IMG/VR virus record: IMGVR_UViG_3300028384_000675
Coordinates: 28,947 to 92,946 of that record
DNA: 64,000 bases
Strand: one strand, 5' to 3'
Source of the DNA: a virus
Position 1 is the first letter of the stretch. Every line of letters starts with the position of its first letter. Below the pieces are notes generated by a model. The model searched no databases. It was not told the DNA's origin and was given only the letters and a program-made list of their open reading frames with translations. Below are positions 775-36,473 of the stretch, one piece after another. Made by a program: the position numbers and the translations under genes.

Positions 775-1881
775 TTAGAGATCATATGGGTCGAACAGTT
801 GCCACGGTTCGTATTTCATCCTTTCTTGTTCTTCGATTTGCTGAATTGCGTCGCTACCGTCGTCAATAAAACCGAACGGAACGATGTCGTCTTCGATCTG
901 TCTCATCTGTTGTTCGAACATCATCTGCTTTAGGTTGATGTCTGTCATATCAGCGAACATCTGAGTTGTAATGAAGTACCCTAGCATCACGAGGTTCATC
1001 ATGAGGTCGTCGTGGTTTCCTTCGCTTGCTTCGTATGACACTCCTTTCGATACAAAGGTAGACACTTCCATGATCGTATCTTCGTCAACAATCTCAAGCT
1101 TTTTCTCTTCTAGCAAATCTTTAATACCCGAGCAACCGAGACGCTTGACCCTTCGTGTCATCTCAATACCAATAGCATTCGCTTTCACGGCAGACTCTAC
1201 GTGTACGTTCTCGTACTCCAGATCGTAGTACAGACCATTACAGACGACTGCGCCCTGATCGTTCGACTCAATTACGACGTATGCATTGTTGTATGCTTTC
1301 GCGATTTTATATATAATATCAGGGAAGAGTATTGGAGAAATAGTGTTGTTCCGATACGCAGCGACCTGACGAAACGGGCGTGTGGCAATGTCGATAACTG
1401 TAAAAGTCGAATAGTCCTGTCCTCTTCCTTTCGCTACGTCAACAGTCATGAGATATTCATGACTGGGTTGTGTTTCTTCGTATACGTTGAGGCAACCATT
1501 CTCCAATACTTTGATCGGTGGCAGTGCCCTAAGATTCAATAGAGTTTCTGCGCCGATCAAAGTATCCCCCGTTCCGAAGAACGTGTTGTGGGAAGTAAAC
1601 GATTTATCGTGATTATAAACTTTGCCGTTTTCTACATTCAGCGGGTCATAAAAATATTGCCCCTCGCAAACTTCCCTACGAACAACAACCTTTCCTATGT
1701 CATCTCCGGAGAAAATATCTTTGGCAAACTTGACTTGACTGGTAATAACAAATTTATGATTGATTGCGGTGCAAAGTTCAGTGCCGTCTTCGAATACAAA
1801 ACGAAACCCATAATCATGCCAATAACGATTTACACCATGAAATTTTTGAAATCCAGAAGGTGTTAAGATTTGTATATCGAT
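775..1881 (-). CDS. gp17: Large terminase gp17, C-terminal gene: intein-C half plus nuclease domain
   Basis: The frame is open from just after a TAG at 1897-1899 to the stop at 775. The first ~99 residues are an intein C-half. They carry IQILTPSGFQKFHGV, a block B-like TELCTAINHKF, a block F-like FYDPLNVE and the terminal SHN that precedes Thr+1 (codon 1582-1584). The extein then runs TFFGTGDTLIGAE into the terminase RNase H-like nuclease. Its acidic residues are visible in VDVAKGRGQDY, YVVIESND and GNHDDLMMN, matching T4 gp17 D401, E458 and D542. The nuclease cuts concatemeric DNA during head filling. There is no ATG, GTG or TTG codon upstream of the intein motifs. I place the start at ATC 1881 because GGAGAGG (1887-1893) lies five bases before it. 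This start is an inference. The frame equals that of the N-terminal gene. Confidence 0.85.
   Translation of the reverse strand: MDIQILTPSGFQKFHGVNRYWHDYGFRFVFEDGTELCTAINHKFVITSQVKFAKDIFSGDDIGKVVVRREVCEGQYFYDPLNVENGKVYNHDKSFTSHNTFFGTGDTLIGAETLLNLRALPPIKVLENGCLNVYEETQPSHEYLMTVDVAKGRGQDYSTFTVIDIATRPFRQVAAYRNNTISPILFPDIIYKIAKAYNNAYVVIESNDQGAVVCNGLYYDLEYENVHVESAVKANAIGIEMTRRVKRLGCSGIKDLLEEKKLEIVDEDTIMEVSTFVSKGVSYEASEGNHDDLMMNLVMLGYFITTQMFADMTDINLKQMMFEQQMRQIEDDIVPFGFIDDGSDAIQQIEEQERMKYEPWQLFDPYDL
1585..1881 (-). other. Split intein, C-terminal half (IntC) of the terminase
   Basis: About 99 codons ending at the His-Asn pair before Thr+1. The order of motifs (ILTPSGF, TAINH, FYDPLNVE, SHN) follows the published IntC of the AceL-TerL split intein (IKILSPNGF, TSINH, LYDPINVE, SHN), recalled from memory rather than searched. 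IntC of AceL-TerL is 104 residues, close to the length here. The motif normally found in the N-half (block B) sits in this C-half, so the break is the rare N-proximal type. Confidence 0.85.
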
Positions 1882-2585
1882 GGGAGCCTCTCCGTTCTAG
1901 TTTTTCCAGACACTATATCTGCAATGCATTTCGCAGTAACATTATAATACTCGCAATATTTTCTGGCGAATGTAGAGTATGGAGTTATCGGTTTCCAACC
2001 AGAATTTTTCTTTCTTCTTTCTTCGTTAATCGGTATCAGTTCTTCTCTTATTTTATCTAGTTCTTTCGCAAAAGTATCTCTGATCTCATCAACTTGATTG
2101 TCTGTCAATTTTGGCGGTCTTAATCTTTTTCCTGATTTGGATTCTTTTTGTTTTTTAATATATTCTGGGTTTTTGTAATTTTCTTTACTTCTCTTTGACC
2201 TTATGTGAAATCCTTCTCTTTTTGCGCGTTTTTTTGCTGACTCAGACATTTTTTTTCTTTGTTCGTCAGAAAACTTATATCCCAATGTTGTGAAGTTAGG
2301 CGAGTTGTGCCCATACCCTTTACCAGAAGGAGATTCGTTCAACCCATTATTAAACGTATCAAGGGAATTAATCCAATACTCTTCTCTTCCTTCAATATAG
2401 TTTCGGTCGTTAGATTCTTCAAGTATTTGTACATCGAAATCGTCACCTTTAAAACGATTAGACCTTTTGTGATCGCCCATTCGAATCTTGAATCTACGTT
2501 GTATGGTAATCCCAACGTATTGCTTTGAGTCTGACTTCCTCTTCAAAAGATAAACCAAGTGTTTCTCTTGTTCTGATACAGTCAT
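1863..2585 (-). CDS. GIY-YIG homing endonuclease between the two terminase genes
   Basis: This is a 240-residue free-standing homing endonuclease. The GIY-YIG core starts VYLLKRK (residues 11-17) and YVGIT (23-27). It is followed by a likely catalytic Arg in RRFKIRMGDHKR and the metal-binding Glu in GREEYWI (around 66-72). A NUMOD3-type DNA-binding motif is seen in SDEQRKKMSESAKKR (106-120), and the C-terminus looks like a helix-turn-helix (YYNVTAKCIADIVSGK). Its start overlaps the end of the N-terminal terminase gene by 92 bases in another frame, and its end overlaps the open start of the C-terminal gene. A TATAAATA promoter lies 33 bases upstream of the ATG. It would cut intein-less or uninterrupted gene 17 to spread itself. 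It could instead be read as an intron endonuclease, but no intron is needed here. Confidence 0.9.
   Translation of the reverse strand: MTVSEQEKHLVYLLKRKSDSKQYVGITIQRRFKIRMGDHKRSNRFKGDDFDVQILEESNDRNYIEGREEYWINSLDTFNNGLNESPSGKGYGHNSPNFTTLGYKFSDEQRKKMSESAKKRAKREGFHIRSKRSKENYKNPEYIKKQKESKSGKRLRPPKLTDNQVDEIRDTFAKELDKIREELIPINEERRKKNSGWKPITPYSTFARKYCEYYNVTAKCIADIVSGKTRTERLPSIYKS
1887..1893 (-). promoter_or_regulatory. Shine-Dalgarno that places the start of the terminase C-terminal gene
   Basis: GGAGAGG on the minus strand, five bases before ATC (1879-1881) and eleven before ATA (1873-1875), both in frame with the intein-C half. It is followed by CTCC, so GGAG-AGG-CTCC could form a small hairpin that hides the site until ribosomes finishing the endonuclease open it. 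The function is inferred from position. Confidence 0.55.
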
Positions 2586-3462
2586 AAAAATCGCCTATTC
2601 TTATTTCGTATATAATATTATTTATAAGAACAGTTATTTGAGAACGACTTTCTAGGCAATTACCAAATTCTTGGTCGAACTGTAATTGCGAAGTGTTTGA
2701 AATTGTTTGTCGTTTCCACTCCTCGTCTCGACCAGGAACGTCCCACCAATTTACCGTGAATGCTTTGTACTCATTAACCTTTTGTACAGCACCTTCCCAT
2801 ATTTTATGATAGGTGTTTCCGATACCATTCGCTGTAGATGTAATAATAACTTTCGTATCTTTACCAGATGAGATAACAGGATAGGTTGAAGTATAGAACT
2901 CAGCAGCACGCTCAACAAACGCAAACTCGTCCAGAAAAAGCAGGTTAACAGACATACCACGTATAGAAGAACCAGAGGTGGCAGCAGCAATAATGCGAGA
3001 ATTATTACTAAACTCAATTGAACCTTTATTAAGAGCGCGACACCCTGGCTGTAGAAAAAACGGTAAATTTTCAAGCGCCAAGGTGACTCTGGCGAGCATC
3101 TCTCGAGCGGTTGCACCTTTGTTAGCGAGGACAGCGATCGTCTTCTCAGGGTGAAATATAGCATACCATAATAGATAAACAACGGATGAAATAGACTTAC
3201 CACTTTGTCGACAGGCGAGGACGATCGAGAAACGATTATCATTAAAGTGGTCAAACATATTTTCTTGATATGGGTAAAGGTCAAAGTTGACAAGTCCTTT
3301 ATCGAGAGAAATGATTTTTACATATGTTCGTGCAAAATATGCAGGATCTTTCATACATTTAGCATACTCAACGACCTGTTCTTCAGTCCATTGTTGTTGT
3401 ACGCCATCCCGTTTTACATTAATATTACCAAGGTAACTATCATTCATCCTGATCGCTAGCAT
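2494..3462 (-). CDS. gp17: Large terminase gp17, N-terminal gene: ATPase domain plus intein-N half
   Basis: This is the ATPase motor of the DNA packaging machine. It has Walker A ACRQSGKS (near residues 84-91), Walker B LLFLDE (near 175-180) and a coupling motif IITSTANG (near 207-214). The extein ends LQFDQEFGN and is followed by Cys (codon 2656-2658), the first residue of an intein. After about 26 intein residues ending IGDFYD the frame runs out of phase through the endonuclease start and stops at 2494, leaving a 28-residue tail. N-extein (~268) plus C-extein (~269) gives about 537 residues, near normal for T4-like terminases (T4 gp17 is 610). The ATG at 3462 is preferred over TTG 3465 because AAGGTG lies just upstream. 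An ATG at 3447 is an alternative. The start overlaps the end of gene 16. Confidence 0.9.
   Translation of the reverse strand: MLAIRMNDSYLGNINVKRDGVQQQWTEEQVVEYAKCMKDPAYFARTYVKIISLDKGLVNFDLYPYQENMFDHFNDNRFSIVLACRQSGKSISSVVYLLWYAIFHPEKTIAVLANKGATAREMLARVTLALENLPFFLQPGCRALNKGSIEFSNNSRIIAAATSGSSIRGMSVNLLFLDEFAFVERAAEFYTSTYPVISSGKDTKVIITSTANGIGNTYHKIWEGAVQKVNEYKAFTVNWWDVPGRDEEWKRQTISNTSQLQFDQEFGNCLESRSQITVLINNIIYEIRIGDFYDCIRTRETLGLSFEEEVRLKAIRWDYHTT
2581..2658 (-). other. Split intein, N-terminal half (IntN) of the terminase
   Basis: Twenty-six codons from the catalytic Cys to IGDFYD: block A-like CLESRSQITV and a following IGDFYD that resembles the IEDLY segment of AceL-TerL IntN (25 residues). 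The homing endonuclease ATG (2583-2585) lies inside the last codons, so the intein is interrupted precisely at this N-proximal site. Confidence 0.8.
2619..2626 (-). promoter_or_regulatory. Late promoter of the homing endonuclease, inside IntN
   Basis: The minus strand reads TATAAATA within the codons for the intein segment VLINNI, 33 bases before the endonuclease ATG. The spacing matches the late promoters of fibre and baseplate genes elsewhere in the window (25-35 bases). Confidence 0.7.
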
Positions 3463-11762: not shown

Positions 11763-14700
11763 TTACCCCTTCAACGCCTTGATTTCTGCCTTTAATGCTT
11801 CAATCTGTTCTTGCTGTTCTTTAATCGCCTCAATAAACAGAGCACTCATAGTATCATAGTTGACGGTCTTGACGACTTCGCCTTCACCCATGATATCTTT
11901 CTCCTTGACTGCCTGAGGAAGAACCTTCTCGACATCTTGCGCGATCACACCAGCAGACTTTTCACCGTCCTTTTTCCACGTAAACTCTACGCCGCGAAGT
12001 TGCTGTACTTTATCTACAGCATTCTCGACGACCGTAATGTTTTCCTTCAACTTCTCATCAGATACTGAGTTAGAGTATGCGATGATATCACCGTCAGCAT
12101 GGAAATCACCAGTAGAGACATTGAAGAAGAATTTGTTAGCATTCGCCACATCACTGATATAAATGTCATTGGTAGAAACTTGATTCTGGTGAATATACAA
12201 GTGACTTCCGTCGAACGAAATTTCATAGTCATCACCAGTACCGAACTGAACCTTCTTATCATCGTTCAGATCAATATGATCACCACGAATATAATAACGT
12301 CCGTCTAGATCAACCGACGCTCCTGCCGAACCTGTGCCTGTCAGCGAGAGAACACCGCTACCTGTATTGAACGATGCCGCATTAATGTAGTCAGTAGAAC
12401 CGCCAGACGCTGCAGCAGGAAGAGAAACTGTTTTCGTGTTAACTGCAGTTATGTGACCTTCTGGGTTGGTTGTGATATTATCGACAACAGTGAACGAACC
12501 GCTGTATCCAGGAGAAGTGCTGTTCGTTGTATTCGTTCGGTCAGTCTTATTATGACTAATCGCTAGATCATATGGGTCACCAGTAGAACCAGGAGAAGTG
12601 TCGACCCAGTTCATATTGATGTAATTGGAAGATCCAGAAACAGATGCTGCTGCTTCAACAAACTTGAACCTCTTTCCGTGAGACATAGTAACAGCAGTGC
12701 CGTCTCCATCTTCAACGGTGAAGGTGGTTAGTCGATTTGTATTGGTATCAGTGTTTGTATCAGTCCAAGGAACATTGACGTACATCTGACCATTCGACAG
12801 TTCAACTGGGTAGTTCTGACCGTTCTCGTTGTAACCAATCTTGACAAGACCCAGCGTAGAACTTGTTGCTTGCGAGTAAGTCGTGTTTGTATCTGTAGTT
12901 GAGTAGCGACCATCAAGGTCAACAACAACGTTCGACATTCCTCCGCTACGACTCAGCGTCAGTTCACCGTTGCCAGTGTTAAACGAAGCACCGTCAAGGT
13001 AGTTGTTGCTGTTGCTACCAATCGTCACATCGATAGAGGACAACCCTGCACGATGTAATGTCAGTTTACCAGATCCAGCACTATAACTAGCAGAGGAAAC
13101 ATAGTTGTTTGTATCAGTAGAAGCAATGTTAATTTGGTTGCTAGAAACACGACTTACTGAAACATTGTTGCCACCTTTCAACCATACCTGATCTGACGTT
13201 CCGGTACTAGGGTCTAGTGTAATCGCCGCGCCGTCAATATTTGCGCTTGTAGAAGCATACAAATCGTATGTTGTATCTGTATTACTTGTCGCGTAACGAC
13301 CGTCAAGGTCAACTGTTACGTCACCCAGACCTGCTCGCGATAATGTTAGAATACCGTTAGTGTCATTGAACGAAGCGCCATCGACATAGTAGTTCGTGTC
13401 GGTGTTAGTGTCAGTAGAAGAAATTGTTACCGTGTTTGTTTCAGCATTATACCCTAATGACGTTGCGCCGCCTGACAAGAACTTCAGCGTATTTCCTGAG
13501 TAGATGTTGTCAGTGTTATTTGATCCAACCTTCACCTTCCAGTGATTGTAGTTGTCATAACTTCCTGCTAACTGATAGCGTCCATCAAGACTTACCGAAG
13601 CACCTGCTGCGCCGACACCACCCAAAGCGAGCACACCACCACTGAAACTTGCGCTGTTGACATAATTGTTAGTATCCGTTGAACTAATCGTTACCTTCTT
13701 ACTTGTAGCGTTGTATGAAACGCTACTAGCACCGCTTCCTGCGAACTCAATTGTTTCGCCAGAAGTAACTGCTTCGGTGGTGCTTCCATTCTTTAAGTTC
13801 CAAGAAACATAGTTATCGTATGTTCCCTGTAGCAGATAACGTCCATCCAGATCAACCGAAGCGCCTGCACCACCAGTTCCGGTGAGTGATAGAATACCTG
13901 TTCCTGTACTGAACGAAGCGCCAGTGATGAAGTCGTTAGTATCTGTCGAAGTAATTCGAAGTGTATTTGAAGCAGCATAATAAGTGGTAGAAGCAGCACC
14001 CGCCCCTTCAAATTTTACTGATTGCCCGCTGGTAACCGCCTCATCATGTGTGCCATCAGTTATAGTCCAAGAAGTATACTTGTCGAATCTTTCCGTCAGA
14101 CCCAAGTCAACCGTGACATCTGACATAGAGTGTCTGCTCAGAGTCAGAACATCGTTCGAACTATTAAACGAGGCACCGTCGACATAAGTGTTGGTAGAAC
14201 CAATTGACAACGTGTTTGTCGATGCAGTGTAAGTTGTACTTACATCGCCAGACCCAACAACCTTAAGAGTATCGTTAGAATAGATGTACTCGTGATTGGT
14301 ACCGTCGCTGATCTTCCAACGATCATACTTGTCGAACCTTTCCGCCAGACCCAGATCAACTGATAAACTGCTCAGACCGTTTCGACCAAACGTGATTTCG
14401 TCAGTAGAAGCATTCCATGAAACGCTTGAGAGATAATTGTTAGTGTCAGTTGCACTAATTGTCAATTGATTATCAGTTGTATTTAACGAAGTAGTGACAT
14501 TCGTGCCACCTACAACCTTAATGAGGTCAAGGGATGTTACTTCTTGAGAAGTAGAACCGTCAGATAAACTCCAAGAAACATAATTGTCATATGTTCCCTG
14601 TAGTAGATAGCGACCATCAAGGTCGACTGTATTCCCGTCACTGATCGTAAGTTTACCGGTGGTTCCGTTCCAAGAAAGCGTCTGATCGTCATATTCAAAG

Positions 14701-17700
14701 TAATCGCTGATCGTAACAGATTCAGAAGTGCCATCACCTTTATGGATTGTGATTGTGTCATCAGATACTGTTAATGCGTTACTGGCACGAAGTGCTTGGG
14801 GACTAGTCTGCTCAACATACCGACCATCAAAGTCAGTCGTCAATGTCTGTCCATCATTACGATTAGCAGTAAGAACTCCATTACCGGTATTAAATGATAT
14901 TCCTGTAACGAAATAGTCAGTACCGATTGCGTCACTAATTGTAACAGATTCGGTTGTGCCATCTGCTCTCTTCAGAGTAATTGTGTCATTGTTAACCTGT
15001 AGCGCATCTGTTGGATGCAACGCCTGAACGTGTGAGGTTGTTACATAATCTCCGGCAGGTTGGTAACGCCCATCAATATCGATTGTGTTACCACCAGAAA
15101 TACTGATCTGACCATTCGCTCCATTCCAACTCAGATTTTGATTCGGGAAGAAGTCGTCGTCAATTGTTACAGCATCTGTCGATCCGTCTGCCATGTGGAG
15201 TGTGATGGTATCGCCGCTGACTGTAAGAGGGTTCGTTGTTCTGAGTAACTGCGGACTCTGACTATGTACGTATCGATCGTCGAGGTCAACAGAGAAATTG
15301 CCACCATCGTTTCTACCGATCGACAATACTCCATTCACATCATTAAATACGAATGAGGTAGTGTATGTGTTTGTGTTAGCGTCCGAGATCGTTACTGATT
15401 CAACAGTGCCGTCTGCTCGAGTCAGAGTAATTGTATCATTGTTTACCGCAAGTGCCGCCCCTACAGGTAATGCTTGCGAACTTGTCTGATGAACATAACG
15501 ACCATCAAGGTCAACTGAGTTTCCATTAGAAATCGAAAGAACACCAGTACCGCTGTGACCACCGCTGAAAGAAAGGTTTTGATAATGATAGTGCTCATCA
15601 TCAAATGTAACTGATTCGTACGTCCCGTTCCCCTTATACAGGTAAATCGTGTCACCAGATATTCTCAATGCATCAGTTGAATGTAACGCCTGCACTCCAT
15701 CATTAGGAACATAACGTCCATCAAGGTTTACTGATGCTCCTGCTGCTCCGACACCAGTCAACGAAAGAGTACCGCCATTAAATGTAGCAGCGTTGATGTA
15801 GAAGTTAGTGTTTGCATCACTAATCGTCACTTCATCCGTTGTCCCATCTGCAAGATGAAGTGTTATCGTGTCATTGTTAACTGTCAGAGGGTTGGTCGCA
15901 CGTAGTGCCTGAGGACTTGTCTGTTCAACATATCGACCGTCAAGACTCACCGAAGCGCCTGCGTCTCCGGTTCCAGTTAACGAAAGAGTACCATTACTAA
16001 ACGAAGCGCCAGTGACGAAATCGTTTTCAGCACTAATCTCCAATGTATTCGTTGACGTTGACAACGTTGTGGTTACATTATCACCACCAGAAACCGTGAT
16101 AGTCTCACCAGATGATATCGATTCGGTTGACGAACCGTCAGTCAATTTCCAGTTCGAGTAATTATCGTATCTACCATCGAGACCGGCAGTCACTGAATTA
16201 CCATCGTTGCGCGTTCCGGTCAATACACCATTCGATGTATTGAAAGACAGACCTGTGATGAAGTAGTCGGTACCAAGAGCGTCAGAAATGTCGTGACTTT
16301 CTGAGGTGCCGTCTGCTTTATTAATTGTAATTGTATCGTCGTTCACTTCCAGTGCGTTTGTCGGATGCAACGCTTGGGCACTTGTTGTTGTAACATAATT
16401 ACCAACAGGTTGGTAGCGACCATCAAGACTTACCGAAGCGCCTGCAGATCCAGATCCAGTTAGGGAGAGAGTACCACCAGTAAACGAGGCGCCAGTAATA
16501 AAATCATTATTGTCAACGATAGTAACTGCTTCGCGAGTACCATCACCCTTGTATAGATAAATCGTGTCGCCGCTCGACCTTAATGCGTCAGTTGGGTGTA
16601 ACGCTTGCGGTCCTGCTTTATCAACGAAATGACTTTCTAAATCAACAGTAAATGAACCACCGTCATTTCTTCCTATGGTCAGTTCACCATCGGTGCTTAG
16701 TGCAAGAGAAGTAATATAGGTGTTAGTGTTAGCATCGCTAATTGTTACAGATTCTGATGTACCATCGCCTTTGTAGATTGTAATTGTATCATTGTTAACT
16801 GCGATTGCGTTTGTAGAACGCAAAACCTGCGCGCTTGTAGTCTGAGTATATCGCCCATCGATATCAACAGTGTTTCCATCCGATATAGTCAACTCACCTG
16901 ACGAAGCATTCCAAGAAAGCGTTTGATCGTCAGGATAAAACTCGTCGTCTATATCAACGCTGATGGATGTACCGTCAGCACGATGTAATGTAATAGTGTC
17001 ACCACTAATAGTCAGTGGAGTGTTAGCGCGTAGTGCCTGTACACTATTCTGATTGACATAACGTCCATCGAAGTTTGTTGAGACCGTATTCCCGTCATTA
17101 CGAGATCCAATCAGCGTGCCACTACTAGTATTGAACGATAAACCTGTAATGAAATAGTCAGTTCCGATTGCATCAATGATAGAATGAGATTCGAATGTAC
17201 CATCTGCTTTGTAAAGAGTGATTGTATCGTCATTCACTTCTAATGCGTTAGTTGGATGCAATGCTTGAGCGCTGGTTTGTTCAACATAGCGTCCATCCAA
17301 ACTAATTGTTACTAATCCAGCATCATTGCGATATGCGGTTAAGAGACCTGTTGTGGTATTAAATCCAACGCCAGTCAAGTAATTGTCGTTAACAGTTACC
17401 TGAACAGAATTTCCATCTGCTAGATTCAGAGTGATAGTGTCGTTAAGAACAGTGATCGGGTTAGTTGGATCTAACGCCTGTGCGCTATTGGTAGTGACAT
17501 AATTACCTGTTGGTTGATAACGACCATCAAGTGTCACATTCAGATCAGGTAATCCAGAACGTGATGCTGTTAGTACACCGTCCGATGAATTGAATGTCAA
17601 ATTATTGACGAAGTTGTTAACATCTGAATCGTCAACAGTTACCTGAGCAGTATTTCCATCTGCTAGGTGAAGCGTAATTGTATCGTTGTCAACCGTTATA

Positions 17701-20700
17701 GGGTTGACAGAACGTAACGCTTGACTACTTTGGTTGTGCACATATCTGCTATCGAATCCGGTCGCGACAGTTTGACCGTCTCTTCGGAATCCAGTCAGAA
17801 CACCTGTTGTTGGATTTAGCGAAATGCCAGTTAAGAAGTTATCGTTAACTGTAACACTGACACTAGTGTCATCAGCAAGGTGTAATGTGATTGTGTCATC
17901 GCTGACTGTAAGAGGATTCGTTTCACGAAGAACCTGCTTTCCGCCCTTTATATCCTGTATCGTTGTTCTAATGGCATCGATGTCAGAGTCATTACCATCA
18001 ACTCTTAGGTCGAGCGATGCGATATCATCGTCGTTTCCTAGGATCCTAGTGCCTAGTGCCGAGTCAGCGAGTTGTAATGAAACGATATCGCCAAGAACAT
18101 CAACCAATACTGCAGAGTTTGAGTCCAGTCGATCTTCTGTGATTTCTATTCTTGAGATAACTGAATCAAAAGCAGTCAGGTTGTACAATGCGTTTGCTGC
18201 AATATCAGATTCTGCTGCTGTCATACGACCTTCAACTAAGTCGTGCTCACCGTGTAATTCGTTGATAGAAGGAATGATTACTTGGTTAACAGTGTCGAGT
18301 GGTCCAGACCCTAGTCTGCTCTGAAGATCTGCAACATCTGACTCGCCGACTGAGGTTCTTCCTTCAAGAGAATCTAAACGGTTCTCTGCTGAATCCATTC
18401 TCGGTTGAAGATCATCAAGAATATCTTCGGCGTCATCCATCTCCCCTTGTAGAGTACCGACGTCGGTATTCAGAGTTGATAGTATCGAAGAGTTATTCTC
18501 GATTAGTGTTTTGAGATCACTATCCGCGTCTCTGAACGCTTCAATGATTTCTAGGATTGTGTCCAGATCACCAGGAGCGCTGTCCAATAACCCATCAACT
18601 CTGCGGTTTACAGCGTCAATGTTAATTTGTAGTGCAGAGTCAGCATCATATCTCGTTTCCGCTTCTTGAGTTATGGCAGTACTGAGTTCAGAATCACGAA
18701 GAATTGCGCGTGCTATTTCCTGATCGATTAATATGTTGTTCGCTCGAATGTCTGTTGCATTCGAATCAATCATGCTGGTTAAATCTGCCTCGAGGTTGAT
18801 AGATCGACTTAGACCTGAATCAATCTGACTTTGTAAATCTTTCTCAACATCCAATGCACGATTCATTTCTGAGTCGATCAGGTCACTGAGAGTCTTGTTT
18901 ATATTCGTCAGTCGAGATGTTGCCGAATCGATTCCGCTCTGTAGATCGCCTTCGGCAAGAATGGCACGAGTAATTTCATCAGCGATAGAAGTTGAGTTAG
19001 AGTCGATTCTACTGAGGAGGTCTGACTCCAAATTCACAGACCGCTCGAGTCCTGAGTCAATCTGACTTTGTAACCTTGCCTCGACGCCCTGCGCCCGAGT
19101 CATCTCAGAATCAATGAGATCAGAAAGTGTACGATTGATGTTTGTTAGGCGAGTGGTCGCAGAGTCAATCGCATCTTGTAGACCTTCTTCTGCCAAAATC
19201 GCTCTGCCTATTTCTTCAGCGATAGAGGTTGCGTTTGAGTCAATTCTTCCTAGTAAGTCAGATTCAAGGGTGACTGAACGTTCGAGTCCTGAGTCGATCT
19301 GACTTTGTAGCCTTGTTTCAACATCAATCGCTCGGCGAGTCTCAGAATCAATTAGGTCGCTCAATGCTTTGTTGATGTCAGTGACTCTTGTAGACTCGGA
19401 GTCAATCAGATCTTGTAAATCGCCTTCCGCTTCAATTGCTCGTGCGATCTCGTCAGCGATAGAAGTTGAGTTAGAGTCGATTCTGCTGAGAAGGTCAGAT
19501 TCAAGGTTCAGCGTACGACTTAAACCTGAATCAATTTGACTTTGTAAAGATCCTTCTACTGCTAAAGCGCGAGTCATCTCAGAATCAATTAGGTCGCTGA
19601 GAGTTTGATTGATGTTGGTTAGTCTTAGTGATGCTGAGTCAATCAGATCTTGTAGTTCACCATCAACACGAATCGCTCTGGTAATCTCTGAGTCAATCGC
19701 TGCTGTGTTCGCATCAATATCGAGACGAATATCTGAGTCAGCGTTGATAGAAAGCGACAGACTCGAATCGATCAGATCTCGCAAGAAACGCTCTGCGTCA
19801 ATGGCACGACTCAACTCAGAATCAATAAGTCCTCTCAATTCTGATTCGGCATCTAGAGCACGGTTCATTTCTGAATCAATAAGACCATCCAGAGTTTGAT
19901 TGATGTTGGTTAGTCGCAGTGTTGCCGAGTCAATCTGACTTTGAAGATTACCTTCGACTCTGATTGCTCGTTGCGTTTCCGAGTCTATCATGCTGGTCAG
20001 GTCTGATTCTAAATTAAGTGTTCGACCTAAACCTGAGTCAATCTGACTTTGAAGGTTTCCTTCGATTCCGATTGCTCGTTGAGACTCAGAGTCGATCAGA
20101 TCACTGAGAGTCTTATTAATATTTGATAAGCGAGCAGTTGCTGAGTCGATTGCTGTTTCGGCATCATCCAGTCTGCTCTCTGCCGAGTCCATTCTTGCAG
20201 TCAGAGAAGTAACCTCTCCTGATCGCAATCCAATAATTTCGTTATCGGTATACGTGTTCGCTTCTTGTTTCGCTGTAGCAATACGGGAGGTAATTGTGTT
20301 TCCTGCTGTACCGTCTACAGTCGCGTCACCGATCATTAATGCATCGCGTTGACGAGTGTACAGTCGCGCAGCAGAAAGGGTAGCAGAGTCTCCTACCGCC
20401 CTGAGCGATTCCTCTTGCTCGATTCTATCAATCAGTTCTTCTCGGGCAGAATCAATGTTGCCTTGTAGGTCTTCTCCGACTGAGAGGCGATTTAAAACTT
20501 CTTGGTCAATTCTTGCATTGATATCAGAATCAGCAGCAGATCGTAGACTCGCTTCTGTATTGACACTTGTATTAATCGCGTCCTGTAAGTCAGAGTCTGC
20601 TGCTCTTCGCGCAGCAATTTCCTGATCAATTCGTACGCCAAGCGCGGAGTCACCTGCCAATCGCTCGCTCGTTTCGTCAGATACGCGAGTTGTGTTAGAT

Positions 20701-22550
20701 GAAACGAGTTGCCTTACATCGCTGTCGACTTCATTAAGATAGTTGACGATTTCAGTCAACGAGTCTATAGCAGCAGGATCTGTGTTGGTTATGACGTTAT
20801 TAATCTTGTCTTCGATACGCTGTTCTTCACCCTTTGCGCGCAGTTCTTCTGCGTCAATCTGTGCTCGTAGGTCAGAGTCTGCTGCGATTCTAGCAGAGTT
20901 TTCGATACCGACAGTGTTCGCTGCTTGCTGTATAGCATAGTCTCGTGCCGAGTCAATTCTTTCTACAACAGTGTTACCAGAAGTACCATCAATTGATGCG
21001 TCACCAATGAGTAGCGTGTCATGCGCCTTCGCGCTCGCGAGTGTATCCGAGTCGCCCTGATTAATTAAATCTGTCAAATCTTGGCGTAATGATTGCTCAT
21101 CAGCAAGACGAGAGGTTCTTTCGGAATCAAGCGAACTGGTTAGTTCTGACAGCGCATCGATACGTGCTGAGATTTCTGAATCAAGTCCAGTTTGTATATT
21201 TTCATTGTCATCAATTCTATCCGATCGTTCAGAGTCAAGTAAATCGAGCAGGTCTTCGATTGCATCAAGGCGGTTTGATGTTTCTGAATCAACTTTAGAA
21301 GAGAGATTAGAAATAGCAAGGGAAAGTGCTCTCGCTTCTGAGTCAAGGTTGCTTTGTACCGCAGCGTCACCTAAAATCCTTGCGCCGCGCTCAGAGTCGA
21401 TTAAACCTAAAAGATCAGCATCTGCTTGTATTCTATCTGCACGTTCTGAATCTAAGTTTGAGGACGCGCCTTGAATTGAGTTAATTCTGTCAAATCTTTC
21501 TGAGTCGAGTTCTGCCAATAAGTCTTCTATCGCATCGAAGCGATCTTCTTTTTCAGAATCCAGTTGCGCCAGTATGCTTTCGATTGCGTCAAGACGATCA
21601 TCTTTTTCTGAGTCAAGTCGCGAGATAAGGTCATTGATTGCTGCGAAACGATCGCTCTTCTCTGAGTCGAGATCGCCAGAAAGTGCACTAAGTGCATCTA
21701 TTCTAGCATTCGTTTCTGCTGTCAAATCAGAATCAAGGTTGGCGTCACCCTGTTGCCTTGCTGCTATTTCTATTTGTAACGCAGAGTCAAGGGAAAGGAT
21801 TGCTTCTTCGTTGGTTGAAACTCGATTAGTAAGCAACCCGAGATTGATATTTGTAAGATCAATTCTAGATGACAGATCAGTGTCAAGCGAAGCAACTGTA
21901 TTGGTGAGCGTTGTAATACCACCCTCGGCAACTCCCATACGAGAATTTAAATTGCTCAACGTTGAATTATTGTTGCCAATATCTCTGTTAACGTCAATCT
22001 TAAATTGATCAAACTCACCTTCTAATGATTCGAGGTTGTCGCTGTCAATGTTTAATCGTTCTACAAGAGGAAGGGTCGCTGTCGCAATTACATCGTTAAT
22101 AAATGCAGAGTCTTTTGAATAGATATCGTATCGCAGACCTTCGATTTTATCATTAAGTGCACCAACACCCATCTCTGCCATGGTGTCGACAACATAACCT
22201 CGGATCGCACCAGAGGTAGGAATCGTAGAGTCGAGCGTTAGAAAATCGTCAGCATTATCTACAATGCCATTTACTGTAACTTGTGTGACGTGATCGCGTA
22301 ATTTACCAAAACTTAATTCACCTGTCGCACGAACGTCTCCACCAACCTCAATATCATTATTGACGATCAGGTCTTGACTAACAACCGCATCATTACCGAC
22401 ATCGGTAACGTTCTTAACAGTGTCAGCAAATAAATTTTCCTTTCTTACTTTCTTGGTTCTGCCACCGTCGCTTGCATCGTTGACAATCAGGGTGTCTTTA
22501 TCACCAACCTGATCCAATTCTTGTAATTGCGATATTTTTACGTCTGTCAT
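11763..22550 (-). CDS. Giant tail fibre (3595 aa) with self-cleaving endosialidase-type chaperone
   Basis: The domains in order are these. Residues 1-100: the shared anchor (VKISQLQELDQVGDKDTLIV, TKKVRKENLF, SQDLIVNNDI). About 100-1530: coiled-coil repeats with LDSE/IDSE every turn of the pattern (DLIDSEMTRAL, LQSQIDSGL). About 1530-3400: some twenty beta repeats built on NNDTITL, ADGT, SVTISD, TGVLT and LDGRYV. Residues 3497-3595: a Peptidase_S74 intramolecular chaperone (SDEKLKENI, GVIAQDVEKVLP, VNYDTMSALFIEAI) that assists trimer folding and is normally released by cleavage before the Ser. The protein is probably a very long side fibre. It has its own promoter and a strong terminator just upstream. 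All 3595 codons are open. Confidence 0.85.
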   Translation of the reverse strand: MTDVKISQLQELDQVGDKDTLIVNDASDGGRTKKVRKENLFADTVKNVTDVGNDAVVSQDLIVNNDIEVGGDVRATGELSFGKLRDHVTQVTVNGIVDNADDFLTLDSTIPTSGAIRGYVVDTMAEMGVGALNDKIEGLRYDIYSKDSAFINDVIATATLPLVERLNIDSDNLESLEGEFDQFKIDVNRDIGNNNSTLSNLNSRMGVAEGGITTLTNTVASLDTDLSSRIDLTNINLGLLTNRVSTNEEAILSLDSALQIEIAARQQGDANLDSDLTAETNARIDALSALSGDLDSEKSDRFAAINDLISRLDSEKDDRLDAIESILAQLDSEKEDRFDAIEDLLAELDSERFDRINSIQGASSNLDSERADRIQADADLLGLIDSERGARILGDAAVQSNLDSEARALSLAISNLSSKVDSETSNRLDAIEDLLDLLDSERSDRIDDNENIQTGLDSEISARIDALSELTSSLDSERTSRLADEQSLRQDLTDLINQGDSDTLASAKAHDTLLIGDASIDGTSGNTVVERIDSARDYAIQQAANTVGIENSARIAADSDLRAQIDAEELRAKGEEQRIEDKINNVITNTDPAAIDSLTEIVNYLNEVDSDVRQLVSSNTTRVSDETSERLAGDSALGVRIDQEIAARRAADSDLQDAINTSVNTEASLRSAADSDINARIDQEVLNRLSVGEDLQGNIDSAREELIDRIEQEESLRAVGDSATLSAARLYTRQRDALMIGDATVDGTAGNTITSRIATAKQEANTYTDNEIIGLRSGEVTSLTARMDSAESRLDDAETAIDSATARLSNINKTLSDLIDSESQRAIGIEGNLQSQIDSGLGRTLNLESDLTSMIDSETQRAIRVEGNLQSQIDSATLRLTNINQTLDGLIDSEMNRALDAESELRGLIDSELSRAIDAERFLRDLIDSSLSLSINADSDIRLDIDANTAAIDSEITRAIRVDGELQDLIDSASLRLTNINQTLSDLIDSEMTRALAVEGSLQSQIDSGLSRTLNLESDLLSRIDSNSTSIADEIARAIEAEGDLQDLIDSESTRVTDINKALSDLIDSETRRAIDVETRLQSQIDSGLERSVTLESDLLGRIDSNATSIAEEIGRAILAEEGLQDAIDSATTRLTNINRTLSDLIDSEMTRAQGVEARLQSQIDSGLERSVNLESDLLSRIDSNSTSIADEITRAILAEGDLQSGIDSATSRLTNINKTLSDLIDSEMNRALDVEKDLQSQIDSGLSRSINLEADLTSMIDSNATDIRANNILIDQEIARAILRDSELSTAITQEAETRYDADSALQINIDAVNRRVDGLLDSAPGDLDTILEIIEAFRDADSDLKTLIENNSSILSTLNTDVGTLQGEMDDAEDILDDLQPRMDSAENRLDSLEGRTSVGESDVADLQSRLGSGPLDTVNQVIIPSINELHGEHDLVEGRMTAAESDIAANALYNLTAFDSVISRIEITEDRLDSNSAVLVDVLGDIVSLQLADSALGTRILGNDDDIASLDLRVDGNDSDIDAIRTTIQDIKGGKQVLRETNPLTVSDDTITLHLADDTSVSVTVNDNFLTGISLNPTTGVLTGFRRDGQTVATGFDSRYVHNQSSQALRSVNPITVDNDTITLHLADGNTAQVTVDDSDVNNFVNNLTFNSSDGVLTASRSGLPDLNVTLDGRYQPTGNYVTTNSAQALDPTNPITVLNDTITLNLADGNSVQVTVNDNYLTGVGFNTTTGLLTAYRNDAGLVTISLDGRYVEQTSAQALHPTNALEVNDDTITLYKADGTFESHSIIDAIGTDYFITGLSFNTSSGTLIGSRNDGNTVSTNFDGRYVNQNSVQALRANTPLTISGDTITLHRADGTSISVDIDDEFYPDDQTLSWNASSGELTISDGNTVDIDGRYTQTTSAQVLRSTNAIAVNNDTITIYKGDGTSESVTISDANTNTYITSLALSTDGELTIGRNDGGSFTVDLESHFVDKAGPQALHPTDALRSSGDTIYLYKGDGTREAVTIVDNNDFITGASFTGGTLSLTGSGSAGASVSLDGRYQPVGNYVTTTSAQALHPTNALEVNDDTITINKADGTSESHDISDALGTDYFITGLSFNTSNGVLTGTRNDGNSVTAGLDGRYDNYSNWKLTDGSSTESISSGETITVSGGDNVTTTLSTSTNTLEISAENDFVTGASFSNGTLSLTGTGDAGASVSLDGRYVEQTSPQALRATNPLTVNNDTITLHLADGTTDEVTISDANTNFYINAATFNGGTLSLTGVGAAGASVNLDGRYVPNDGVQALHSTDALRISGDTIYLYKGNGTYESVTFDDEHYHYQNLSFSGGHSGTGVLSISNGNSVDLDGRYVHQTSSQALPVGAALAVNNDTITLTRADGTVESVTISDANTNTYTTSFVFNDVNGVLSIGRNDGGNFSVDLDDRYVHSQSPQLLRTTNPLTVSGDTITLHMADGSTDAVTIDDDFFPNQNLSWNGANGQISISGGNTIDIDGRYQPAGDYVTTSHVQALHPTDALQVNNDTITLKRADGTTESVTISDAIGTDYFVTGISFNTGNGVLTANRNDGQTLTTDFDGRYVEQTSPQALRASNALTVSDDTITIHKGDGTSESVTISDYFEYDDQTLSWNGTTGKLTISDGNTVDLDGRYLLQGTYDNYVSWSLSDGSTSQEVTSLDLIKVVGGTNVTTSLNTTDNQLTISATDTNNYLSSVSWNASTDEITFGRNGLSSLSVDLGLAERFDKYDRWKISDGTNHEYIYSNDTLKVVGSGDVSTTYTASTNTLSIGSTNTYVDGASFNSSNDVLTLSRHSMSDVTVDLGLTERFDKYTSWTITDGTHDEAVTSGQSVKFEGAGAASTTYYAASNTLRITSTDTNDFITGASFSTGTGILSLTGTGGAGASVDLDGRYLLQGTYDNYVSWNLKNGSTTEAVTSGETIEFAGSGASSVSYNATSKKVTISSTDTNNYVNSASFSGGVLALGGVGAAGASVSLDGRYQLAGSYDNYNHWKVKVGSNNTDNIYSGNTLKFLSGGATSLGYNAETNTVTISSTDTNTDTNYYVDGASFNDTNGILTLSRAGLGDVTVDLDGRYATSNTDTTYDLYASTSANIDGAAITLDPSTGTSDQVWLKGGNNVSVSRVSSNQINIASTDTNNYVSSASYSAGSGKLTLHRAGLSSIDVTIGSNSNNYLDGASFNTGNGELTLSRSGGMSNVVVDLDGRYSTTDTNTTYSQATSSTLGLVKIGYNENGQNYPVELSNGQMYVNVPWTDTNTDTNTNRLTTFTVEDGDGTAVTMSHGKRFKFVEAAASVSGSSNYINMNWVDTSPGSTGDPYDLAISHNKTDRTNTTNSTSPGYSGSFTVVDNITTNPEGHITAVNTKTVSLPAAASGGSTDYINAASFNTGSGVLSLTGTGSAGASVDLDGRYYIRGDHIDLNDDKKVQFGTGDDYEISFDGSHLYIHQNQVSTNDIYISDVANANKFFFNVSTGDFHADGDIIAYSNSVSDEKLKENITVVENAVDKVQQLRGVEFTWKKDGEKSAGVIAQDVEKVLPQAVKEKDIMGEGEVVKTVNYDTMSALFIEAIKEQQEQIEALKAEIKALKG
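12290..17945 (-). repeat. Beta-repeat array of the giant fibre
   Basis: Roughly twenty degenerate units of about 60-110 codons, each with DTITL-x-x-ADGT and LDGRYV-x-x-TS-x-QAL segments. Variation between units is spread over the whole unit, and some units carry an added DNYxxWxxxDGS insert. Confidence 0.75.
18110..21900 (-). repeat. DSE/DSD coiled-coil repeat array of the giant fibre
   Basis: Repeats with LDSE, IDSE or IDSG placed at regular intervals between helical stretches such as RAIDVETRLQSQ and LTNINKTLSDL. The longest internal unit is about 65 codons and occurs at least six times between residues ~850 and ~1280. Confidence 0.75.
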
Positions 22551-22585
22551 CTTAAACTGATCCTGGTGAGTAGTTATACAAGATC

Positions 22586-22593
22586 TATTTATA
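22586..22593 (-). promoter_or_regulatory. Late promoter of the giant fibre
   Basis: TATAAATA on the minus strand, 35 bases before the ATG at 22550 and immediately downstream of the terminator at 22609-22632. Confidence 0.8.
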
Positions 22594-22608
22594 AGATATT
22601 GAAATAAA

Positions 22609-22632
22609 AAAAGGGGACCGAAGTCCCCTTTT
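22609..22632 (-). terminator. Rho-independent terminator after the 429-residue gene
   Basis: The minus strand folds as AAAAGGGGAC, loop TTCG, GTCCCCTTTT, followed by more T residues. The UUCG loop and T tract are a textbook intrinsic terminator. It ends transcription of the propeller gene cluster before the giant-fibre promoter. Confidence 0.9.
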
Positions 22633-22655
22633 AGATTATCAATAGTGATGCCGGT

Positions 22656-24937: not shown

Positions 24938-25540
24938 TTACTAACCGAAGGAATCAAAAGAAGCACCATCAAACGCAGTTAGTTTAGTCGGTTGAGCAGA
25001 TAGGTCATTGGCGTCATAAACATAGACTGAACCATTGAAATCGTCACCATTTGCACCAACGACGATCTTGTCGGAAGAAGTAGTAATTGAATATCCGAAT
25101 TTATCATTCGCAGCGCCATCAAATGCAGTTAGTTTAGTTGGTTGAGCGGATAGATTGTTGATGTCATAGACATAGACTGAACCAGTGTAAGAATCTTCGC
25201 CGTATGCACCAACAATGATCTTATCAGCAGCAGTAGCAATTGAGATGCCGAAGAAATCGCCCGCAGCACCATCAAATGCTGTTAGTTTAGTTGGTGTTGC
25301 AGATAAATTATTGGCGTCATAGACGTAGACTGAACCAGACTGAGATCCATTGTCATCATCTAGGCGTGCACCAACAATAATCTTATCAGCAGTAGCAAAA
25401 ACATTCTCTCCGAAGCAATCACCTGCAGCAGCATCAAACGCTGTTAGTTTCGTTGGTGTTGCAGACAGATTGTTGGCGTCATAGACATACACTGAACCGG
25501 AACTAGATCCATTGTCGCCGTCACCCCATGCACCAACAAC
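24400..25540 (-). repeat. Near-identical propeller blade repeats
   Basis: Seven blade units of about 150-165 bases, all containing a stretch like CCATCAAACGCAGTTAGTTT on the plus strand (near 24500, 24650, 24800, 24965, 25115, 25265 and 25430). They are far more alike than blades further upstream, which suggests recent duplication or gene conversion. They are also a hazard for short-read assembly. Confidence 0.8.
24938..24943 (-). other. Tandem in-frame stop codons TAG TAA
   Basis: The minus strand reads GGT TAG TAA GTT at the place where other blades have Phe-Gly followed by two residues such as Tyr-Ser or Ile-Ser. The preceding blade uses TAT TCA here, so each stop is one base change away. 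The frame is otherwise intact on both sides. Confidence 0.9.
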
Positions 25541-28500
25541 GACATAACTTGATCCTGACGCTACTTCCTCATAAGACCATGTAATCGCATCGCCTTCTGG
25601 ATCAGTACCAACTGCAGTAATTGCTGTTCCGCTTCCACCTGCTGTCAGCAGATATGAAGACTCAATACCAGTCACCGATGGTGCTTGGTTGACATATGTA
25701 AAGTCAAAGTCAGATGACACTGACGTTACATTACCTTCTGAGTCAGTCGCCTTAAAGGTCAACTGGAAGTCAGCGTCCTGTTGACCAGGAGTTACTGTGA
25801 ACACGTTATCAGATTGCGCAACGGTTACATCACCGAGTGGACTAGGTGCAACAGATCCAACTGCGTTAAATCCAAAGCTAATGCTAGTACCAGTTCCCGC
25901 AGGTGGATTTACTAATTCTGGTGCTGCCGATAAATCGCTCAGGATGTAAACATACATACCACCAGTACTCGCGTCTTTTCTGTGAGCAGAAGAATATAAC
26001 TTATCGCCAATTATGGTTGTGTTATATCCTAGCATTGCACCTGTTGCTGGAGATTCCAATACTGTCGGAGCAGCAGAAAGGTTGTTTATGTTATAAACAT
26101 AAATAGCACCTGCTGATGAGTTTCTTTGGTGTGCCCCGACGAAAAGTTTATCTTCGTGTGGAAGAACAGACATACCAAAGTAATCTCCTTCAGCAGCATC
26201 GAATGCTACAAGTTTCTCAACAAAGGATAAGTCGCTTTCGTTGTACACGTATACAGCACCACCACTAGTACCGTTCGAATTATGGTCCGCAGTCACAGCA
26301 GAAATATAGATCTTACCCCCATAAGTTTTTATTGAGTATCCGCCAAATCTGTCAGACTCAGACGCATCTGGCGCAGTTAATTTCTGTACGAATGCATAAG
26401 TATTGACATCGTAAACATAAACTGCTCCAGCATCAGTACTATTGTCGTCGTCTCCCATCGATCCAATCAAGATATGATTAGATGTTACTGTTATACCTCC
26501 GCCAAGTCCAAAATAGTCGCGATGATCGCCGTTGGTAGGAGTTAATGTTGCCTGAAGCGAAAGGTCAGATTTGTTGTAGATATAGACTTTTCCGGTATAA
26601 TCATCATTACTGTTCGTTGTTGGTCCCCATCCATATGCTCCAATGATCAATAAGTCGTCAGTGACGGAAATTCCGCTTCCGAATCGAAGGTTATTCTGCG
26701 CTTCGCCAGTAAGCATGGTCGGCGCGGCAGAAAGGTCGCTTCTATCGTAAATATAAACCGCTCCGCCCCAGGTTTCATCCGATTCATCTGACATCATCTC
26801 ACCTATGTAGATTTTGTCGGAATCAATTTCCATTGAAAATCCAAATCGTTCTGCTGATGAACCGTTCGGCGCAGTAAGCAATGTTGGTTCCTCTGTCAAA
26901 TCAGTTGGATTATATACATACACATAACCCTGATAACTATTAGATTGTATCGCAGAAACAAATAACTGATCTTGTGACGTGGATGACACTGCCTCATACG
27001 ACCATGTAACCGTGTCACCTTCTGGGTCAGTTGCCGCAGCAGTGATCACAGTGCCCTGACCTTGAGTCAGAGTATATGTTGAGTCAATACCAGTCACCGA
27101 TGGTGCTTGGTTAACATAGGTCAACGAGAAGTCTGCATCTCTGGTATCCGTATTTCCTGCTGTATCAGTGAGGGTGAATCGTATCGTGAAGTTTGCATCA
27201 GCAGTTCCTGGTGTTACTGTGAATTCGCCGCCATTTTGCGTTATAGCAGTTCCGTTCAAACCAGAAGGAACGCCTCCGTTCAAGACTTCTGCAAACGACC
27301 AAGTAACAGCGTCGCCGTCAGCGTCAGATGACATACCAACGATCACCTCGTCTACACCCTGAGTCAGCGTATACACAGATTCAATACCTGTGATCACTGG
27401 CGCAGCATTATAGTCAAAGGTGATGTCAGAGGTCGCAGTAGTCGCTGCACCGTTTGTATCAGTTGCCGTAAAGGTCAACTGGAAGGTAGCATCTTGATCC
27501 CCAGGAGTGATTGTGAACACGTTACCCGCCTGAGTTACTGTTGTACCTGAAAGGTCGCCAGAAGTTACTGCGTAAGTCAACGAAACAGTATCACCGTCAG
27601 AGTCTGAAGTTGTTACTGTGATCTCAGTATCTTGACCTTGATCCAGCGTATACGAAGAATCAACGCCAGTTATTGATGGCGCGTCATTATAGTCTAGTGT
27701 AAACTCAGAATCGAAGTTTGTCTGGTTTCCTGACTCATCAGTTGCAGTAAAGCGCAACGTGAAGTTAGCATCCTGTTGTCCAGGAGTTACTGTGAAGTCA
27801 TTACCGTTCTGCGTTACAGTAGTTCCGTTCATACCAGAAGGAACACCCTCGCCTAGAACTTCTTCGTAACTCATAGTAACTGTTTCGCCTTCGGCATCAG
27901 ATACTACAGGAACGATTACTTCGTTAACGCCCTGAGTCAATGTATACGCAGGTTCAATACCGCCGAGTGACGGTGCTTGATTCACGTATGTAAAGTCAAA
28001 GTCAGATGTTGTAGAAGTCACATTACCGTTTGAGTCAGTCGCCTTAAAGGTCAACTGGAAAGTAGCATCCTGTTGTGCAGGTGTTACTGTGAAGACATTG
28101 TCAGATTGTGTTACAGTGACACCGTTGAGTTGCGAAGATAGATTATTTGCAGAAACTGAATAACCGAAATAATCTGCTCCTGCGCCATCATATGCTGTTA
28201 GTCTGGTCGGTTGAGCAGAGAGATCATTTATATCATAGACATAAACTACTCCAGTATATGTACTACCAGGACCGCCGTATGCTCCGACAATGATTTGTTC
28301 AGACGTTACCGCAAGACCAGTGCCGAACATATCAGTCGCAGCACCATCAAACGCTGTTAGTTTCGTTGGTTGAGCAGACAGATCGTTTGCGTCAAAGACA
28401 TAAACTGATCCAGATTGCGCCCCTCGGTCATCATCAGCATATGCGCTCACAACTACCTTATCAGAACTTATAGCAACGTGTTGCCCGAACATATCGCTCG

Positions 28501-36406: not shown

Positions 36407-36473
36407 TTTACTCTCCCAAAATCTGTTAAAAAAAACAGGAAAACTAAATATTCCCCTATTCTAGTCTTCGTTA

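Follow-up and report, generated by a model that had tools for sequence, protein, structure and literature searches.

A Thr+1 split intein and an overlapping GIY-YIG homing endonuclease gene interrupt the terminase large subunit gene of a viral contig

In 2009 Dassa et al. reportedly described fractured genes with split inteins, together with a family of Vsr-like endonucleases. Among the split inteins of the terminase large subunit (TerL), AceL-TerL has an N-fragment (IntN) of only 25 aa, and GOS-TerL consists of fragments of 37 and 115 aa, with Ser as its first residue and Cys as the first residue after it (Ser1/Cys+1) (PMC11766414). In the phage ShiLan, an HNH endonuclease is inserted out of frame in a methylase gene with no detectable intein (PMC11855218). 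The homing endonucleases of phage T4 are placed under late promoters, plus RNA stems that mask the ribosome-binding site (PMC2988022). Here we describe gene 17 in a stretch of 64,000 nt of viral DNA (IMG/VR record IMGVR_UViG_3300028384_000675, positions 28,947 to 92,946), which is called the window. Judging from its sequence and relatives, this TerL gene very probably acquired a mobile class-1 intein that belongs to the AceL-TerL group, the coding region of this intein is interrupted in turn by the gene of a GIY-YIG homing endonuclease (HEG), and the two halves would be joined by protein trans-splicing.

The analysis of open reading frames (ORFs) showed that gene 17 encodes TerL on the minus strand, in two pieces that share one frame. 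This bears out the coordinates and the minus-strand halves of an earlier note, made from the letters of the window, which had read gene 17 as two genes in the same frame. The same note considered the catalytic residues of both halves to be intact, in agreement with the terminase motifs present on both sides. The N-extein matches Pfam Terminase_6N at 1.9e-19 and the C-extein matches Terminase_6C at 1.9e-18. As empty alleles, phage C48C1 and 80 other close TerL relatives were examined, and in these QEFGN runs without interruption into TFFGTG, or close variants are found. Therefore, the coordinates of the intein are exact: Cys1 is encoded at 2658-2656, the codon of the last intein Asn ends at 1585, and Thr+1 is encoded at 1584-1582. 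The junction defined by these relatives also agrees with the site of the atypically split TerL inteins, QEF-x followed by (C/T)xFxG. Comparison with the relatives showed that Thr at this position is the native TerL residue of the phage clade, so the intein suits its host gene.

Table 1. Features of the interrupted TerL locus, in positions of the window
Feature	Position	Strand	Basis or remarks
TerL N-extein (ATPase half)	2659..3462	-	Starts at ATG 3462, ends ...QFDQEFGN; Walker A CRQSGKS, Walker B LLFLDEF
Intein N-fragment (IntN), 26 aa CLESRSQITVLINNIIYEIRIGDFYD	2581..2658	-	Aligns with the N-fragments of split TerL inteins, AceL-type ones included
TATAAATA, T4-type late-promoter motif	2619..2626	-	Within the IntN coding sequence; the HEG ATG follows 33 nt downstream
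Possible RNA stem-loop over the HEG ribosome-binding site in read-through transcripts	2595..2633	-	10-bp stem
GIY-YIG homing endonuclease (HEG) ORF, 240 aa	1863..2585	-	Third frame; Pfam GIY-YIG 4.6e-7
Intein C-fragment (IntC) open frame	1585..1896	-	Retains the block-B His and the terminal SHN; a start at AUC 1881 would give 99 aa
Shine-Dalgarno-like GGAGAGG	1887..1893	-	GAGAGG core exclusive to the clade without an IntC ATG
Candidate AUC start of IntC, (M)DIQILTPSGF	1879..1881	-	Frame, Shine-Dalgarno spacing of 7 nt, block conservation
Alternative candidate AUA start of IntC	1875-1873	-	Aligned with the ATG codons of L153, L156 and L167
TerL C-extein (RNase H-like nuclease half)	775..1584	-	Begins at Thr+1, TFFGTGDTLI

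After ...QEFGN, the N-half continues as C LESRSQITVLINNIIYEIRIGDFYD..., with Cys1 directly following, as had been noticed before. The first gene had been thought to end after 26 intein residues; in fact 26 residues are conserved, but the ORF extends 54 residues beyond the junction, through the HEG in its other frame, to a stop at 2494. IntN and the C-fragment (IntC) of about 99 residues are separated by in-frame stops, and two polypeptides are thus predicted. The residues of a class-1 intein are present: Cys1 comes right after QEFGN in every Thr+1 locus, INH is found in IntC, and SHN precedes the Thr. The block-B His and the C-terminal His-Asn are invariant across the alignments.

The comparison of IntC with the Protein Data Bank (PDB) retrieved the Cat intein (PDB 6dsl) with an E-value of 1.9e-11 as a single sequence and 1.8e-30 with a five-sequence profile, a match strong enough that the resemblance is not due to chance; gp41-1 and VidaL came next. 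A contiguous sibling intein, in locus L174, gave an AlphaFold model of the Hint fold with a predicted local distance difference test (pLDDT) value of 84, whose top PDB matches were VidaL (template modelling (TM) score 0.78) and Cat. At the same TerL site, loci L035 and L036 carry an intein that we take to be of the AceL-TerL type, by the sequence of AceL-TerL and by the fragment length given above. Its IntN has 25 aa, its IntC begins with MFRT, and its halves overlap with no endonuclease. These matches uphold the earlier reading of the intein as AceL-TerL-like, with an N-proximal split and Thr+1. By its sequence, the intein belongs to the AceL-TerL/Cat group of atypically split TerL inteins, as a Thr+1 variant rather than AceL-TerL itself. 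Thr lies within the Cys/Ser/Thr range of inteins at +1, and therefore it was filed as a variant of this group despite the Cys+1 of the characterised members.

The HEG occupies the entire gap between the halves and runs into both of them: it shares 92 nt with the N-half ORF and 34 nt with the IntC frame. The earlier note is silent on it, as on the missing IntC start and the embedded late promoter. In the window and in the split Thr+1 loci, the HEG ATG lies within a TATGA of the IntN codons (I)G(D/N)LY(D/E), overlapping Y-D/E. A frameshift from IntN into the HEG was considered and rejected: the TTT T context of the window is TTA T in L004, whereas the HEG ATG is kept.

The frame of the C-half opens at 1896 after a TAG and has no ATG, GTG or TTG before the extein, in which TTG 1560 is the first codon of this type. 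Of the second gene as it had been described, the intein block of about 99 aa ending in SHN before Thr stands. In the siblings, IntC starts at an ATG by the 3' end of the HEG, e.g. ATGGAAAACACGAAC... in L151. The alignment with them indicates that in the window clade this ancestral ATG was lost and a stop was gained (TAG in the window; TGA in L004/L005), the window stretch being TGG AAA AAC TAG AAC GGA GAG GCT CCC ATC GAT ATA CAA ATC TTA. The GGAGAGG has an anti-Shine-Dalgarno energy of -6.6 kcal/mol, on a par with the genes of this phage itself (median -4.05 in 30 long ATG ORFs). The five window-clade loci do not differ in the block GAGAGGCTCCCATCGATATACAAATCTTAACACCTTCTGG. In this clade IntC probably begins at AUC 1881 or AUA 1875, aided by GGAGAGG and by the ribosomes that terminate on the overlapping HEG.

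The layout of the window recurs in four other IMG/VR contigs, L002, L003 (IntC 99% identical), L004 and L005 (IntC 89%, HEG 86%). When IMG/VR was scanned with a profile, 57 loci were retrieved at this TerL site, and in the great majority of them the split is N-proximal. These inteins are thus common in viral contigs, and not rare, in disagreement with the previous view of one of very few. Genes of GIY-YIG, HNH_3 or DUF559 type are found between IntN and IntC of these loci, and most of the other split loci give IntC its own ATG or GTG. Outside the window clade the +1 residue of the profile-scan loci is Cys wherever readable, and L037/L038 are contiguous relatives of the split inteins. Two pattern scans added loci with HN followed by TFFGTG, of the L151-, L153-, L156-, L163-, L167- and L168-types, plus L174. 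All these Thr+1 types have an overlapping GIY-YIG gene, except L174, which is one continuous ORF, CLKSYSEITICINNSVAEITIGDLDECIKRGSDTSKIQILTP...SHN followed by TFYGTG, contiguous and HEG-less. Cys1, the block-B His, SHN and Thr+1 are retained at every locus of the lineage.

The mini-intein of L174 (L174:2866-3268) retains codons that match the first few codons of its siblings' HEG. Either the HEG was deleted there, or the 5' end of the HEG derived from the intein.

Purifying selection acts on IntC, the HEG and the exteins. In the comparison of the window with L004, the ratio of nonsynonymous to synonymous substitution rates (dN/dS) was 0.017 (N-half of TerL), 0.094 (HEG) and 0.063 (IntC), the 0.06 of IntC corresponding to dS of 0.96-0.99. 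Selection of this kind implies that IntC is translated despite having no usual start codon, and the pattern of substitutions is that of three translated and selected products, the N-half of TerL, the endonuclease and IntC. The dS of IntN is 0.13 and that of the extein next to it 2.3, and in the pairs window-L005, L153-L156 and L163-L167 the dS of HEG and IntC (0.46-0.96) is lower than that of both exteins (1.9 to saturated). Many further pairs behave likewise, though saturation limits them. Together with the abundance of empty alleles, the lower dS of the element points to a horizontal spread of the entire IntN-HEG-IntC unit, indicating that it probably moves by homing.

In the proposed mechanism, three proteins would be made: TerL-N-IntN, the endonuclease and IntC-TerL-C. 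IntN and IntC would pair into a Hint fold, and trans-splicing by Cys1, the Asn at the intein end and Thr+1 would yield the intact terminase. The endonuclease would cut intein-free TerL alleles of co-infecting phages, into which the IntN-HEG-IntC block would then be copied. The late promoter within IntN would give a separate late transcript for the endonuclease and the C-half.

The window contains 13 copies of the late-promoter motif, TATAAATA, where 2.3 would be expected. All 13 are on the minus strand, and none of 100 shuffles attained this number. Most of these sites are 20-150 nt upstream of ATG ORFs, many of them large, and sites other than that in IntN precede structural ORFs. Within IntN, the motif is at nt 33-40 in every Thr+1 lineage except L183, which has TATAGATA. 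Searches near the locus for sigma-70 promoters and terminators gave no excess over shuffles. The possible RNA stem over the HEG ribosome-binding site showed weak covariation, with two pairs changed on both sides among seven sequences, and was significant against synonymous randomisation in L163/L167/L168.

Two very long open frames are found elsewhere in the window on the minus strand, at 11766-22655 (about 3630 codons) and 24944-36460 (about 3839 codons). A TATAAATA is placed 35 nt before the ATG of the first of them.

Other explanations for this locus were weighed. The two halves of TerL could act as separate subunits without covalent splicing, like the split NrdA of phage Aeh1, with the intein pieces as relics. 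Enzymes encoded by genes in pieces do function unspliced in T4-like phages (PMC2988022), and the loss of the IntC start could mean that the C-half of TerL is made alone, e.g. from TTG 1560. This is, however, quite improbable in view of the strong purifying selection on IntC at a dS close to 1 and of the splicing residues retained throughout the lineage. A programmed -1 frameshift out of the HEG, producing a HEG-IntC-TerL-C fusion, would fit the register of the HEG/IntC overlap and the lack of a canonical IntC start, and GGAGAGG could serve as its upstream stimulator. We regard it as unlikely, because 11 positions at the HEG end were tested and in no case could the P-site and A-site tRNAs both re-pair after a -1 slip, and because the sibling IntC uses an ATG at the same HEG/IntC boundary.

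A self-splicing RNA intron that carries the HEG, with a continuous intein translated from the spliced mRNA, would be in keeping with the frequency of GIY-YIG-bearing group I introns in T4-like phages and with the mRNA splicing reported for the terminase of ICP1 (PMC10448857). A group I or II intron was nevertheless rejected as a very remote prospect: no Rfam match was found in the window, the HEG extends across the gap into both halves, so that a ribozyme core would have no space, and IntC has an ATG or GTG in most other split loci. As for an assembly artefact, a possibility already raised in the earlier note, or a dead gene, the record is a metagenomic contig and its IntC is devoid of a start codon. 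The recurrence of the layout in L002-L005, two of them at 89% IntC identity, argues that it is not an artefact, and all parts are under strong purifying selection, which makes this explanation highly implausible.

Some observations weigh against a mobile split intein that restores the terminase by trans-splicing. IntN has CLESRS where CxxGxT is usual, and the model of the isolated window IntC was poor and uninformative (pLDDT 59.5), no PDB entry being matched at E<0.001. The terminase is essential, yet initiation at non-AUG codons tends to be weak. Against synonymous randomisation, the RNA stem of the window itself gave a p of 0.47. In favour of the proposal, no TerL pieces beyond these two were found in the 92.9-kb record; this record may, however, be a fragment, and a second terminase is possible.

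We also consider, as a tentative idea that is somewhat less probable than its opposite, that the 78-bp IntN segment is composite, being at once a splicing peptide, a late promoter, an RNA switch, and the ribosome-binding site and start codon (TATGA) of the HEG, and that in the window clade the terminase also needs HEG-coupled AUC or AUA initiation of its second half. If so, the phage could hardly shed its parasite without losing the terminase.

Other arrangements were observed among the TerL genes. In the Vibrio phages VP-1, K469 and 1.244.A (L008:1489-3705, L009:1-1962 and L010:628-2589), IntN of the intein at the same site continues in frame into a related GIY-YIG domain. The N-half is thereby TerL-N-IntN-endonuclease, and IntC-TerL-C comes next in another frame. 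Second inteins, apparently contiguous, were found near the TerL Walker A in Vibrio VP-1 (L008:1489-3705) and in the Campylobacter phages CP21/IBB_35 (L011, L012), and the CP21 terminase seems to carry three inteins. In L015:2708-4978, a second Walker A-proximal intein is broken by a DUF559-type endonuclease. Loci L015, L020 and L022 have split TerL inteins with Ser1 and Cys+1, GOS-TerL-like; the downstream ATG of L015, which once more falls within a TATGA, is the start of IntC itself, and no endonuclease intervenes.

Inteins split near the N-terminus with a short IntN are prized for protein labelling, and few are characterised. The loci described here provide a natural Cys1/Thr+1 set, which can be compared with a contiguous sibling and viewed in the context of empty alleles. 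The family displays stages of intein breakage by GIY-YIG, HNH and DUF559-type endonucleases, which bears on the origin of split inteins, and the window clade offers a case where apparent initiation at a non-AUG codon can be tested in a gene essential for the phage.

In relation to the known systems, the window shares with AceL-TerL (25+104 aa, Cys1/Cys+1) and with the consensus intein Cat the TerL site, the N-proximal split and the conserved IntC blocks. It differs from AceL-TerL by its Thr+1 in place of Cys+1, by the lack of a canonical IntC start and by a GIY-YIG gene that overlaps both halves and has no counterpart in the AceL-type copies of L035/L036. GOS-TerL is also a split TerL intein with a short IntN, but the window has Cys1/Thr+1. 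VidaL (PDB 6vgv), an atypically split intein, is the top fold match of L174, yet its sequence match is weak (E 0.002). As is said of the fractured genes of Dassa et al., a free-standing endonuclease stands between the split-intein halves of a phage gene; that of the window is a GIY-YIG enzyme, overlaps both frames and accompanies an N-proximal split. In ShiLan, as in the window, the frame of the endonuclease differs from that of the host gene, but the window keeps both intein halves. Control of the I-TevI type in T4 (PMC2988022) resembles the window in that a GIY-YIG gene is closely preceded by a late promoter, and in the possible RNA stem that hides the ribosome-binding site, whereas the promoter of the window is inside intein codons and its stem is not significant. 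The new features are the lack of a usual IntC start in the window clade, with GGAGAGG where the ATG was lost, the late promoter within IntN codons, and the HEG ATG placed over the Y-D/E of IntN.

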